Shown piece by piece: positions 34 through 8,414 of a stretch of 64,000 bases of DNA. Source of the stretch: Chryseolinea lacunae. GTDB taxonomy: Bacteria > Bacteroidota > Bacteroidia > Cytophagales > Cyclobacteriaceae. The notes below the pieces were generated by a model. That model was not told where the DNA came from. It worked only from the letters and a program-made list of their open reading frames with translations, and did not search any database. Location of the stretch: the NCBI RefSeq assembly GCF_016735595.1, contig NZ_JAERRB010000002.1, forward strand, positions 322,996-386,995. Direction: 5' to 3'. The position numbers and the translations under genes are program-made. Positions within the stretch are counted from its first letter, which is position 1. Every line of letters starts with the position of its first letter.

Positions 34-459
34 ATGGCAGACTCCAAAAACCAAACCGACAACACCACATCACCCGCCGACACCACACCCAAAGTGACCG
101 GCATTGGCGGCATTTTCTTTTTCTCGGACAACCCGCGCGAAGCAAGAGACTGGTATGCCAAAAACCTGGGCCTTGACGTGAACGACTGGGGCTCGACATT
201 CGAATCGAGAAACGTGAACAAGCCCGACGAGATAAACGCCCTTCAATGGACGCCTTTCAAAAAAGGAGATGAATATTTTGCGCCATCAAAGAAGGAGTTC
301 ATGATTAACTATCGCGTTCAGAATATTGAAGGGCTTGTAGAGAAATTAAAAGGAAACGGCGTGACGGTGTTGGATGAGATTGCGAGTTATGAGTATGGCA
401 AGTTTGTGCATATTTTGGATGCGGAGGGGAACAAGATTGAGTTGTGGGAGCCAGCTTAG
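34..459 (+). CDS. VOC (glyoxalase/bleomycin-resistance fold) family protein, copy 1
   Basis: A 141-residue single-domain vicinal-oxygen-chelate protein. After a polar, Thr/Pro-rich leader of about 20 residues comes the typical VOC opening (TGIGGIFFFSDNPREARDWYAK) in shortened form: TGIGGIFFFSD, then ARDWYAKNLGLD. The C-terminal half has the paired FVHILDAEGNKIELWEP strand, whose Glu is the usual metal ligand. The substrate cannot be told from sequence. The upstream region is cut by the window edge. The second copy has an in-frame ATG 21 codons further upstream, so this gene could also start earlier. A nearly identical second copy lies at 2779-3203. Assignment to the VOC family is firm; function is not. 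Confidence 0.85.
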   Translation: MADSKNQTDNTTSPADTTPKVTGIGGIFFFSDNPREARDWYAKNLGLDVNDWGSTFESRNVNKPDEINALQWTPFKKGDEYFAPSKKEFMINYRVQNIEGLVEKLKGNGVTVLDEIASYEYGKFVHILDAEGNKIELWEPA

Positions 460-2688: not shown

Positions 2689-2778
2689 TTTGTAGACCAA
2701 AAAGAAAACTTTCGAATGGCCCGCTGCACACACGCAACGTTGCAGGCACCCGGCGATTCTAACAAACAACAAACCGAC

Positions 2779-3203
2779 ATGGCAGACTCCAAAAACCAAA
2801 CCGACAACACCACATCACCCGCCGACACCACACCCAAAGTGACCGGCATTGGCGGCATTTTCTTTTTCTCAGACAACCCGCGCGAAGCCAGAGACTGGTA
2901 TGCCAAAACCTGGGCCTTGACGTGAACGACTGGGGCTCGACATTTGAATCCAGAAACGTGAACAAGCCCGACGAGATAAACGCGCTTCAATGGACGCCTT
3001 TCAAAAAAGGAGATGAATATTTTGCGCCATCAAAGAAGGAGTTCATGATTAATTATCGCGTTCAGAATATTGAAGGGCTTGTGGAGAAATTAAAAGGAAA
3101 CGGAGTGACAGTGTTGGATGAGATTGCGAGCTATGAGTATGGGAAGTTTGTGCATATTCTGGATGCGGAAGGGAATAAGATTGAGTTGTGGGAGCCGGCT
3201 TAG
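2779..3203 (+). pseudogene. VOC family protein, copy 2, frameshifted
   Basis: Nearly identical to 34-459. Homology starts at least at 2746, matching window base 1, and ends at the stop codon. An A5 run in copy 1 (160-164, coding for AKNLGLD) is A4 here (2905-2908), so translation goes out of frame at AKTWALT and stops near 2925. The remaining 93 codons stay open in the original frame from 2922. Most other differences between the copies are third-position changes. Both copies were therefore selected as proteins until recently, and the frameshift is young. It could also be a sequencing error in a homopolymer or a slippage switch. Confidence 0.8.
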
Positions 3204-3364
3204 GGGGCGGCACCTTAGTACGCCATTTTGGTACCGCCATATTATTCTATTGACAATGATAGGCGGAATATATACATTAGACTAACGGTTCCTTGCCCAC
3301 CTGATCCAATCTGATCGCATAGCCCACTTGGAATCATTTTTTTCTTTTAAAGAATTTATGTTTT

Positions 3365-5290
3365 ATGGTTATAGGCTTACTAGTTAGAAATTTTAAAACT
3401 TATTCAGGAATTAACTACATTCCCTTAACGCAGGGCCAAAATTTCTGCGGCTTGGTTGGTAACAATGGAATAGGTAAGAGCTCAGTCCTAGAAGCTCTTG
3501 ATTGTTTTTTCAATAATAAACAATGGAGCCACAATGTTATTACGAAAAAAAGTGGTATTCAAAAAACACGGCCTCATGTGGTTCCAATATTTCTTATAAA
3601 AACTGAAGAGATTTCTGCAGGCAATAGAGAGTTGGCTATAAAATTGAGTGAGTATATATGGGAATTGGATGAAAATGATATTAATATTTCACAAAATAAA
3701 CTCCACTTTAAAACATTTCAGGAACAGCTTGTTGCCCTGAAGCGCACGTTTGATAAGGATAATTATTTGCTTTTGCCATTAGGTCAGTCCTATGATGGAG
3801 TGTCAAATTTGAGCATATTCAATACAAAGAAACTTGGTGAATTATTCATCACTAACTTTGATAAGGCGCTTTTGCAAATGGCGGATACGGAACTGTCAAT
3901 ATTTGACCCACTAGTTATTGAGCTAAAGGAAAAATTTGAATACATATACATTCCCAAGGATATCGATCCAGAGAGTTTCACACAGTTGGAGACTAAGGAA
4001 ATTCAATCTTTAATGGGAGAAACCCTTATCGATATCGTTGAAAAATGCGTTCCTCAAAATAAGATACAGGAGATAAATGGTAGTTTAAACCAATTCATTG
4101 AAAGTCTGTCGAGCATCTTGGAAGAGTATTCATTTCGAACGGTCGGCGAAAGGCAAGTTAATCTAAGAAAACATGATGTGTATAAGTTGATTATCGAAGC
4201 CTATTTCAAAATTAGAAAACTCCATAAAAAAGAAGGTGATCACTGGTTGGAAATGGCTTCCCTGAGTTCGGGGGAAAAACAGAAGGCCATAATTGAAATT
4301 GCATATCAATTCCTGAAAAATCAAAAGAAAAATACTGACCGGATTATTTTGGCGATTGATGAGCCTGAATCATCGTTGCATATGTCGGCGTGCTACGATC
4401 AGTTTAATAAGCTTTTCGAGATAAGCTTGTTATGTAGGCAATTAATATTTACAACACATTGGTATGGATTTATTCCGACCGTTGAAGATGGATGCGTAAG
4501 TGTAATTTCGAAGCGAGGTGGGGAGCATGTTTTTGACTCTGTTGGCATAGGAAGCTACCGAGAAGCGATAAAGCAGTCTAATCGGACGTCGCAAGGAAAA
4601 TTGCCATATGATATTAGATTGAAAAGTATTAATGATTTTGTTCAATCTGTAATCACTAGCATTTTGACAGATGAACCATATAACTGGCTGATTTGCGAGG
4701 GCACGTCTGAAAAAATATATTTTGAAAAGTATTTAAAAGACATAAAGAAGGATAAGAAGCTAAGGATAATTCCAGTGGGTGGTGCAAGTGAAATTAAACG
4801 GATATATAACAACCTTCAAGTAGCCTATGAGGATTTTAGAAAAGAAATAAAGGGTAAAGTCATTCTGATATCAGATACGGATACAGAGATAGTGCAATAC
4901 GCTACACGTGATGAACTGAAAAATCTTATTTGCTTTAGAATGGTGAATACTGAAAAAAACAGAAGGACGGAGTTGGTGCGTATGGATTCTACGTTGGTTT
5001 CCCCAAAGACTGAGATAGAGGACGCTCTTAACGGAAAGCTATTTTATCAAACGCTTCTTGATTTCCAGAACGATCATCCGGACATTCAAAACGTATTAAG
5101 TGATGTGAATGATCCATTGGAAGAGGCTGCTTATTTTGCACTCGATCTATCGCCAAGTAAGAGAAAAATTCTTGAAAATTTCTTCGATAGTGGAAATATT
5201 AAATTTGAATTTGCGAATAGGTACGCTTCAAGGATTTCAGATGAGTTCTCGGTCCCGGGCTGGATAGATGATATTAAGAAGCTTTACTGA
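3365..5290 (+). CDS. OLD-family nuclease: ABC/AAA ATPase with C-terminal TOPRIM domain
   Basis: A 641-residue protein. The ATPase domain has Walker A GNNGIGKS (about residues 32-39), an ABC-type signature LSSGEKQK (300-307), Walker B IILAIDEPESSLH (about 327-339) and a switch histidine in TTHWYG (363-368). A TOPRIM domain follows: the catalytic Glu in ICEGTSEK (about 445) and the acidic cluster ISDTDTE (502-508). This is the architecture of OLD/GajA/retron-Eco8-type DNA nucleases, most of them phage-defence effectors. No UvrD-like helicase (Gabija) and no reverse transcriptase (retron) is adjacent. AriB-like (PARIS) fusion is an alternative. The gene is visibly more AT-rich than its neighbours, which suggests transfer. 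Domain call is firm; a defence role is inference. Confidence 0.85.
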   Translation: MVIGLLVRNFKTYSGINYIPLTQGQNFCGLVGNNGIGKSSVLEALDCFFNNKQWSHNVITKKSGIQKTRPHVVPIFLIKTEEISAGNRELAIKLSEYIWELDENDINISQNKLHFKTFQEQLVALKRTFDKDNYLLLPLGQSYDGVSNLSIFNTKKLGELFITNFDKALLQMADTELSIFDPLVIELKEKFEYIYIPKDIDPESFTQLETKEIQSLMGETLIDIVEKCVPQNKIQEINGSLNQFIESLSSILEEYSFRTVGERQVNLRKHDVYKLIIEAYFKIRKLHKKEGDHWLEMASLSSGEKQKAIIEIAYQFLKNQKKNTDRIILAIDEPESSLHMSACYDQFNKLFEISLLCRQLIFTTHWYGFIPTVEDGCVSVISKRGGEHVFDSVGIGSYREAIKQSNRTSQGKLPYDIRLKSINDFVQSVITSILTDEPYNWLICEGTSEKIYFEKYLKDIKKDKKLRIIPVGGASEIKRIYNNLQVAYEDFRKEIKGKVILISDTDTEIVQYATRDELKNLICFRMVNTEKNRRTELVRMDSTLVSPKTEIEDALNGKLFYQTLLDFQNDHPDIQNVLSDVNDPLEEAAYFALDLSPSKRKILENFFDSGNIKFEFANRYASRISDEFSVPGWIDDIKKLY

Positions 5291-5379: not shown

Positions 5380-5925
5380 TCACGCCTCTCCATTCACCAT
5401 GAAGTCGAAAATTCTCCTGTTCTTTAAATCAACCTTAAAACTGAAAAAGCAGTTGCCGCCGTCGCTAACTTCAACCAATTCTGCGTGCCGGTAGTCAAAG
5501 GCACCGGGGTCACAGAAACAGTTTACATACACAAATTTTTCATTGTTTGAAGCGACCGCCATGTATTGCCTTCCATAGCTTTCCGGTCTGATGGTGAAAT
5601 GGTCTTTGTCGAATTTAAGTGTTGGGTGTTCTTTCGATATTTCGTCAAATCTTTTTTCTGCCTCTATATTATAGTCGGCAAGAAAGTGTTTTAACAAATC
5701 TTCGCATTCCTTGATTTCCCGTTCAGTCAATTCCGTTGCGCTAAATGTTATGGGGAAAATGTAATAGTGAGAAGAGTCGTATCGAATGACATGAAGGTCT
5801 AAGGCAGGTGTCGCGACGGAGTCGGCAGAAATCAAAGTATCGGCTTTCAAATGCTCGGCACTTGAGTTACCGATTCTGGTGCAACCTGAAATTGCCAGAA
5901 GGAGAAATAGCAATCTCGCGCTCAC
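5380..5925 (-). CDS. Hypothetical lipoprotein
   Basis: A 181-residue protein with a short lipoprotein signal (LLFLLLAISGC, Cys at about residue 15). The mature part begins with a Ser/Ala/Thr-rich linker and then a compact alpha/beta region with a His-rich patch (DLHVIRYDSSHYYIF) and a CFC pair (VNCFCDPGAFD). I do not recognise the family. It overlaps the upstream XRE regulator gene by 4 nt (ATGA), so the two are translationally coupled. It converges with the OLD-type gene, with about 90 nt between them. Confidence 0.6.
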   Translation of the reverse strand: MSARLLFLLLAISGCTRIGNSSAEHLKADTLISADSVATPALDLHVIRYDSSHYYIFPITFSATELTEREIKECEDLLKHFLADYNIEAEKRFDEISKEHPTLKFDKDHFTIRPESYGRQYMAVASNNEKFVYVNCFCDPGAFDYRHAELVEVSDGGNCFFSFKVDLKNRRIFDFMVNGEA

Positions 5926-6149
5926 TCTTTAATTAACGTCAAATGCCCACACACAAATTCCAACAACTCCCCCGGATTCACCTCAATTGCCAAGGCAATC
6001 AAATACAGCTCTTCCGCCGTTAGCCGTGCTGTTTCACTGGTTGTGATAGAAGTTAATCGATTCTTTCCCAACCCCGTCTTCCTTGCCACGCTGGCTTTAT
6101 TCACGGATTTTTTTTCAAAATACTCTCCCAAGCGGGTCAATTCAGGCAT
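5922..6149 (-). CDS. XRE-family helix-turn-helix regulator, small
   Basis: A 75-residue protein made of one helix-turn-helix domain: ...KASVARKTGLGKNRLTSI, then LTAEELYLIALAIEVNPGELLEF. The pattern (SVARKTGL.K..L) is that of Cro/C1-type DNA-binding proteins. It is first in a two-gene operon with the lipoprotein (4-nt overlap) and is divergent from the small gene pair at 6269-6822, about 120 nt away, so it may control that shared promoter region. That region is very AT-rich. Confidence 0.75.
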   Translation of the reverse strand: MPELTRLGEYFEKKSVNKASVARKTGLGKNRLTSITTSETARLTAEELYLIALAIEVNPGELLEFVCGHLTLIKE

Positions 6150-6884: not shown

Positions 6885-6925
6885 AGCCAACGATATTTCG
6901 TCGGCCCGACGAAATATCGTTGGCT
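6885..6925. repeat. Perfect 41-bp palindrome (20-bp arms, 1-nt centre)
   Basis: Left arm 6885-6904 begins AGCCAACGATATTTC; the right arm 6906-6925 is its exact reverse complement, with a single C between. There is no T-run after it on either strand, so it is not a standard intrinsic terminator. It lies between the small gene pair and the 21-nt array. A perfect cruciform of this length is unusual and could be a recombination, replication or protein-binding site, or the remains of a mobile element end. Confidence 0.85.
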
Positions 6926-6986
6926 GATGTGCTTGTTGAATGTTGCCACGCATTTTTTTAGGCTGTTTTCAGGGATGTCAGCATGT

Positions 6987-7490
6987 CAGTTGGTGAATAA
7001 AAAAATGACGATCGCGAAGAAAATATTTCACGCAAAACGATCGCCGATGCCATTGCCCATTGAAGTTTTTCAATTGAAACCATTCACGGTTCATGTAACA
7101 TTTTTTCAGTTTCAATTGACGCTCCACAATTTTCATATGAAGCAACTCCAGGTTCATATGCCGGATTGATTTTTTTGAGTGACGCAGAAACAATGAATAT
7201 TGAAATGCGCGCAGATGCTCTTGAAATATTTTCGGGTTGGGGGAGGGAAAAGATTTTTGCAGGAAGAAAAAAATGGGAAGCAGGTGGAAAACTTTTATTT
7301 CCTGCTGCGAAATTTTTTCTGTCTCCCGTAAAAGTCTTCCTGCCGAGAGGTAAAAGCATACTGTCATCTGTCGGCAAATGAAATTCAATTGAAACACACG
7401 CGGGTTCATAGAAGCCGCTGTTGGTTTCAATGAACAATCGTGGAGTAGCAGTTGCAACGGAATTTTTTTCAACTGAAAAACAAATTGCCC
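6987..7490 (-). repeat. Degenerate tandem array, 24 units of exactly 21 nt (heptapeptide register)
   Basis: Read on the minus strand, 24 consecutive 21-nt blocks align without an indel. Blocks typically begin AAA or AAC and end in a TTTCAATTG-like, CATATG or CTG ending. One frame stays open over the whole array (7520 to 6978, 180 codons, TTG start) and gives heptads such as NPRVFQL, NREWFQL, KIVERQL, NLELLHM, usually with Leu or Met last. The stop follows the last unit by two codons. Two other readings are possible: a diverged heptad-repeat protein gene, or non-coding DNA whose period equals two helical turns with phased A/T runs. The absence of an ATG start argues against simple coding. Confidence 0.75.
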
Positions 7491-7796
7491 GTCTTCAATT
7501 CCGGCTTTCTCTGCCTGCAAACAAAACTCTTTTAATAGAAAGGGAAATCATTTCAGAAGCCTCGGCGCGTTCATTCGCGCAATGGAACTTGCAAACGCCT
7601 AGTCCCTGAAAATGGGTTTCGCTGCAAGAAGAAGACGTGATGCAAAATGTGGTCATTTTCTTACATCCCGTTTTTCTGACGCAATGTCACTTTTGGGCGC
7701 GAGGGTTCGAAACGTTGAGGTGTGCCAAAAAAATGGTCCAAGGGTTGCCTAAGGGGTTGGCGCGGACAAAACAAAACCAAAATAATCCGCATCTTT
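7491..7796. other. Intergenic, 5' region of the FN3-domain gene
   Basis: About 300 bases between the 21-nt array and the FN3 gene. The first part (to about 7560) still holds CAATT/TTCAA fragments like those in the array but out of register. The rest shows no gene or clear signal. Confidence 0.45.
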
Positions 7797-8414
7797 ATGA
7801 TACAAGTAAAAATCACAACGGGTTTCACCCGCTTACGCGACGAAGAGTTGGACTCTCGCGCACAGGCGATTGTTGCGGCCATGACCGGCAACACAAATTT
7901 TGCAACGCCTTCGCCTACGTTGCAGGTTATTAGCGCTGCCCTAAAAGCATTTCAGGATGCAGCCGCCGAGGCTGCCAAAGGGAACCGAAGTGTCACCGCC
8001 TTGCGCGACGCGCTTCGCACAGATCTGATCCACAAACTGAACGACTTGTCGCTCTATGTTCAACTGAATTGCAAAAACGATCTCTCCATCCTGTTAAGCT
8101 CGGGCTACAAAGCCCGCAAAACGTCCGAACCATCAACGCCCATTCAAATGCCCCAAGGTTTGAAGGTGCAAGCCACCGATGTGAAAGGATCCGTTAAAGT
8201 ATTTGTGAACAAAGTTGAAAATGTTGTGACCTACATCTTCGAGTACCGGCCCCGCGCCGCACCCGACGCTGCATGGACAAGTTTGTTTGGCACCACCCGG
8301 GCACTCACCATTTCAGGTCTGCAAAGCGGCGCGGAATATATGTTCCGCGTGGGCGCTGTGGGCACTGGGCCAACGGTGAAATATAGCACCGAGGTGGCCA
8401 GCTTCGTGCTGTAG
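7797..8414 (+). CDS. Fibronectin type III domain protein
   Basis: About 205 residues from ATG 7797 (MIQVKITTGFTRL); the reading frame opens earlier but those 25 codons are Lys/Arg-rich and unlike coding sequence. The N-terminal half is helical (an Ala-rich segment around AAAEAAKGNRS). Residues about 125-205 form one FN3-like domain, with VTYIFEYRP, then TISGLQSGAEYMFRVGAVG and a closing strand. No signal peptide is present, so it is probably cytoplasmic or carried out by another route. The next gene, DUF5675, is 110 nt downstream beyond a stem-loop. Confidence 0.65.
   Translation: MIQVKITTGFTRLRDEELDSRAQAIVAAMTGNTNFATPSPTLQVISAALKAFQDAAAEAAKGNRSVTALRDALRTDLIHKLNDLSLYVQLNCKNDLSILLSSGYKARKTSEPSTPIQMPQGLKVQATDVKGSVKVFVNKVENVVTYIFEYRPRAAPDAAWTSLFGTTRALTISGLQSGAEYMFRVGAVGTGPTVKYSTEVASFVL

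Follow-up and report, generated by a model that had tools for sequence, protein, structure and literature searches.

The window, a stretch of 64,000 nucleotides from Chryseolinea lacunae, contains an array of diverged, dyad-symmetric 21-bp units upstream of a small gene, and arrays of this kind stand in fixed linkage with no fewer than three protein families across several phyla. Periodicity, dyads, length change by whole units, slower half-sites and non-coding status were all observed. We regard the array, with high confidence, as a gene-linked, non-coding element at the level of DNA. The best overall explanation of its role is a gene-array module, in which dyads phased by two helical turns accompany a gene for a small helical protein, a reading that we hold with moderate confidence. 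The features of the region are the following.

6886..6924, no strand: REP-like palindrome of 39 bp, GCCAACGATATTTCGTCGGgCCGACGAAATATCGTTGGC, bordering the array on its distal side
6975..7478, minus strand (nominal): array of 24 diverged 21-bp units, from autocorrelation, register test and dyad test
6978..7520, minus strand: 180-codon open frame through the array, from the frame listing and judged spurious
7479..7796, plus strand: spacer from the array to the start codon, defined by position only
7797..8414, plus strand: gene for a 205-aa protein of the fn3 family (family 1), from profile searches, a structure model and paralogue comparison

The array and its surroundings

Autocorrelation of positions 6978-7520 revealed identities of 0.385, 0.375 and 0.375 at lags of 21, 42 and 63 (z = 6.4, 5.9 and 5.7), and no other lag rose above z = 2.1 against dinucleotide shuffles. 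The 21-nt peak exceeds every control, as the top value in any of 300 shuffles at any tested lag was 0.34. The array fits a 21-bp register without any indel. In a leave-one-out test, 15 of 25 blocks scored best in phase among the 21 possible shifts (about one expected), and the remaining blocks were too diverged for placement. The original prediction of a 21-nt periodic array in an indel-free register is thereby borne out. The consensus reads TTTCA-nn-TGAAA and then a linker of 9 bp, so that a 12-bp palindrome recurs every 21 bp. With the score lowered to 30, Tandem Repeats Finder still missed the array; its homologues are in many cases far more regular.

The adjacent protein is predicted to combine an N-terminal four-helix bundle, which carries the motif MTGNxNFxTPxP, with a C-terminal fn3-like sandwich domain (AlphaFold2 model, mean pLDDT 90.5). 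Searches of Pfam and NCBIfam gave no family above cut-off and weak fn3 similarity only. The structural matches listed for the model were to fn3 domains, and the N-terminal helical domain alone gave no Foldseek match below E = 1 and a middling Z for a helical bundle. We rejected the idea that the gene stems from a phage, a plasmid or a defence system: tblastn against phages and plasmids found no match, PHROGs matches were to phage tail proteins and, for the protein of the window, fell in its fn3 part, and PADLOC matches were single and weak.

The spacer is presumed to contain the gene's promoter. It gains and loses bases freely in relatives, whereas the array does not. Each of the five fn3-family arrays of this genome has the REP-like palindrome (GCCAACGATATTTCGTCGG...) at its distal edge. 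The palindrome has more than 10 copies in the genome and others in the genus, many of them away from any array; it was therefore rejected as an array-specific mark and is more likely to be a general repeat or terminator. A small XRE-type helix-turn-helix-like protein is encoded 0.8 kb from the array (5922-6149) and is not conserved at other array loci. A VOC/glyoxalase-like gene also occurs twice in the window (34-459 and 2746-3203), at 97% identity, and its second copy is split into two frames and resembles a pseudogene duplicate.

Gene linkage and evolution of the arrays

All five members of the fn3 family in this genome have an upstream 21-bp array, each with a different unit. Another genome of the same genus encodes six members, five with clear arrays and a sixth with a weak one in which 21 is the best period. 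A search of 84,980 species genomes found 56 relatives, which belong to Bacteroidota, Verrucomicrobia, Planctomycetes and single MAGs of other groups and are not phylogenetically independent (eight are Sphingobacterium). An upstream array (period 21, 22 or 41-44, within 1.4 kb) was found in 42 of the 52 relatives with enough sequence; the other 10 had no clear array. A downstream array was found in 1 of 51. A separate phylum-wide draw of 296 genomes yielded, besides the members in this genome, six relatives (L240-L245), one of which lies in a longer frame of 464 codons. All six have an upstream array of period 21 or 42; this count excludes a second full-length copy in one genome, and species may overlap between the two samples. 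Homologous arrays, which the original prediction proposed to seek in related genomes, are thus present. As a background, 2.05 Mb (26%) of this genome contained three intergenic 21-bp arrays, and the other period-21 or period-42 hits in this portion lay inside long open frames and looked coding.

Two further families of small helical proteins adjoin such arrays. Family 2 (about 160 aa, first met at locus L014) looks unrelated to family 1 and occurs in 19 of 296 Bacteroidota genomes. Its array lies downstream in 22 of 27 relatives, a median of about 110 nt past the end of the match, and upstream in 1 of 27. The three members in this genome deviate, with one array upstream, one downstream and none within 1.5 kb of the third. 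Shared ancestry of families 1 and 2 was rejected, as their profile comparison was not significant (P = 0.05). Family 3, met at L010, has upstream arrays in 3 of 3 cases.

A few arrays in this genome adjoin none of the three families, such as that of L089, between tilS-like and malate-dehydrogenase-like genes. The motif TGCGACGTCGCATCTTTTAGA is common to the arrays of L013 (8230-8720), L085 (2250-2630) and L089 (8360-8830), whereas the fn3-linked arrays each have a motif of their own; these three may have a binder in common. No neighbouring gene was co-conserved at array loci across phyla, and no gene for a binding protein was consistently encoded near the arrays at the loci compared. In Sphingobacterium (L034-L045, around 2900-3420), a gene for a coiled-coil-like protein of 121-128 aa borders the far side of the array, and most of these proteins end, in the stretch shown, in DRDLLSLLD. 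The locus L068 (2603-4644) has an fn3-family gene with no array upstream; after this gene come first a 42-bp array of high regularity and then a HigB-HigA-like toxin-antitoxin pair.

The original prediction also proposed selection on length in steps of 21, and the closer pairs agree with this; the register can be judged in these pairs only, because the aligner places small compensating gaps at lower identity. Between two Sphingobacterium species (L043 and L045), the arrays are 83% identical with no gap in 339 bp, and the adjacent spacer is 77% identical with four gaps. The arrays of L036 and L043 differ by a single gap of exactly 21. Array length is near-constant, with a median of 308 bp. Substitutions fell less often on informative than on other columns: 23% versus 55% for L036/L043 (p = 5e-9), 19% versus 54% for L036/L045 (p = 6e-11) and 12% versus 23% for L043/L045 (p = 0.006), in comparisons that share species and are not independent, with column information taken from one species only. 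The slower change of half-site columns is significant only in this related Sphingobacterium group, and three other close pairs show the same trend non-significantly. Homogenisation of a shared motif could add to the contrast between columns.

The motif itself turns over rapidly. Its similarity follows protein identity only above about 90%, and tracking of protein similarity was rejected below that level: L034 and L040 share a motif despite 74% protein identity, and unrelated motifs lie beside proteins that are 84% (L034/L036) and 86% (L072/L074) identical. In the arrays of L056 (3408-3725) and L050 (3375-3747), units flip orientation inside the array and the 21-bp phase is kept.

Proposed role and alternatives

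Unit profiles were dyad-symmetric in 40 of 53 arrays (p < 0.05 by column permutation, mean z 3.1) and in 18 of 22 family 2 arrays (p < 0.05, mean z 3.1). Because the spacing is the same and the letters differ beside relatives of the gene in several phyla and beside two further gene families, the array is probably a protein-binding scaffold and not a coding repeat. Of the two DNA-level options first raised, multi-site protein binding over two helical turns gains support from the dyads, the slow half-site columns and the whole-unit indels. The module would comprise about 14 dyad-symmetric sites (24 here), exactly two helical turns apart, paired with the gene for a small helical protein. A dimeric DNA-binding protein may fill successive units side by side on one helical face, and the occupied units would form a cooperative nucleoprotein stretch of about 300 bp; we give this cooperative-binding mechanism an even chance. 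Such a stretch might control the adjacent gene or anchor its product, and control of the neighbouring gene by the array is proposed tentatively.

The element is not simply a promoter operator, because arrays lie upstream in families 1 and 3 and downstream in family 2. Either side would be compatible with an array that silences, insulates or anchors the locus. The step that involves the binder is the weakest of the mechanism. Different motifs in one genome, if binding is sequence-specific, would call for several dedicated binders, which counts against the gene-array module. The putative binder may be unlinked to the locus and evolve fast, or it may respond to spacing and symmetry more than to the letters. 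It is conceivable, though rather doubtful, that these loci represent a new kind of module, in which several families of small helical proteins are each co-inherited with an array of their own, selection acts on spacing and symmetry and not on letters, and a general filament-forming protein that assembles on the array silences, insulates or anchors the locus.

An RNA element is unlikely. The array would be transcribed with its gene as a multivalent RNA (5' UTR in family 1, 3' UTR in family 2), by analogy with RNA-repeat antitoxins or small RNAs; the gene-adjoining position on either side fits a UTR, and dyad units could pair. If the units formed RNA hairpins, G-U would be in excess on one strand and the two arms of a unit would compensate for each other. 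We saw neither: dyad-paired columns contained 168 G-T and 156 A-C mismatches, and Watson-Crick pairs numbered 1700 against 1693.5 expected if the arms vary independently. The absence of a G-U excess and of compensation within units places the signal in DNA and not in RNA hairpins, which were rejected on these grounds and because no Rfam family came near its threshold. Many dyads are also loopless (GAAGGCCTTC, TGCGACGTCGCA, TTTCAnnTGAAA). In favour of an RNA element, PMC8161180 reports that tandem repeats are transcribed in Bacillus coagulans.

It is quite improbable that the adjacent small protein binds its own array, as a replication initiator binds iterons or a centromere-binding protein its site. 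Such auto-recognition would suit the tight linkage in three families and the fact that paralogues of one genome have separate motifs, which orthogonal pairs would be expected to show. However, a DNA-binding protein as conserved as those beside unrelated motifs (L034/L036 and L072/L074, above) would usually keep its specificity, so the adjacent protein is probably not a sequence-reading binder. Structural comparisons found no DNA-binding fold, and the N-terminal domain of the adjacent protein lacks a consistent basic character (net charges from -7 to +8, with a median of 0).

There is little likelihood that the arrays are neutral satellites, made and homogenised by replication slippage and template switching and devoid of function. 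Rapid motif turnover and the in-phase orientation flips of L056 and L050 agree with this origin, but the arrays keep a fixed side beside unrelated gene families across phyla, their period and length are near-constant, and their half-sites evolve more slowly.

Intrinsic curvature from phased A-tracts, the other DNA-level option raised at the outset, is very improbable: two-turn phasing and the A/T-rich units of the window favour it, but the bend predicted with wedge angles after the Bolshoy-Trifonov model was not above column-shuffled controls (z = -1.5 for the window array, mean 0.22 over 49 arrays), and many arrays are G+C-rich (L047, L055, L064).

We all but discount a heptad-repeat protein encoded on the minus strand, which is already refuted as a general explanation. 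The 180-codon frame is indeed open through the array, as first described, and the period in the window is a multiple of three. However, homologous arrays also have periods of 22, 41, 43 and 44 bp, which are not multiples of three, and 24 of 53 arrays lack an open frame. Beside the closest paralogue (protein 75% identical), the array has stops in all six frames, substitutions between L043 and L045 are spread evenly over the three codon positions, and the frame has no Pfam match. Because homologous arrays have a period of 21, 22 or 41-44, the period of 21 reflects two helical turns and not seven codons.

Comparison with known systems

CRISPR arrays, which come with cas genes, alternate constant repeats with unique spacers, and the units of the window are direct, 21 bp long and without spacers. 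A heptad-repeat (coiled-coil) gene would have a conserved frame and a period that is a multiple of three, and the arrays have neither in common.

Plasmid iterons and partition centromeres (F sopC, ParR/parC) are helically phased tandem cis sites for a dimeric protein, and they often adjoin the gene of their binder. The arrays resemble them as tandem sites in helical phase next to a gene. They differ in being chromosomal and present several times per genome with unrelated motifs; the adjacent protein has no recognised DNA-binding fold, and no replication or partition genes were seen nearby. The arrays have small-protein genes beside them, and their motifs do not change in step with protein identity.

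Type III toxin-antitoxin loci (ToxIN and relatives) have locus-specific tandem repeats, with units of about 35-50, upstream of a small gene. Family 1 shares the locus-specific tandem repeats upstream of a small gene. In contrast, the units here are 21-22 bp, the array is downstream in family 2, and there is neither RNA-type covariation nor a G-U bias, the mark of conserved RNA pairing. No ToxN-like fold was seen among the structural matches listed, which were to fn3 domains, and the adjacent protein is modelled as a four-helix bundle with an fn3 domain.

The closest precedent is that of Subirana and Messeguer 2021 (PMC8161180), the only work that our literature search for gene-linked 21-bp arrays returned; it also cites the authors' 2020 paper in J. 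Bacteriol. The bacterial tandem repeats described there have a constant size of 52 or 20-21 nt and a variable sequence, are mostly non-coding, and are noted at 20-21 nt to span two helical turns; as explanations, small RNAs or a polymerising nucleoid protein were proposed. The present arrays are likewise mostly of period 21, with a few of 22, non-coding, and variable in unit sequence within one genome, as in the five fn3-family arrays. They differ from the repeats as described there in being tied to small-protein families on a fixed side and in having dyad-symmetric units, some strongly diverged and missed by repeat finders. The original prediction that no described family fits therefore stands in part: gene linkage, fixed side and dyad symmetry are unreported in the portion of PMC8161180 covered here, and constant-size, variable-sequence repeats of 20-21 nt had already been described.

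Constant-size, variable-sequence bacterial repeats previously had no known partner or function. Gene linkage and dyads can help to trace diverged arrays which escape repeat finders, and the combination of fixed-side linkage with two-turn dyad units makes the function of these repeats experimentally answerable.
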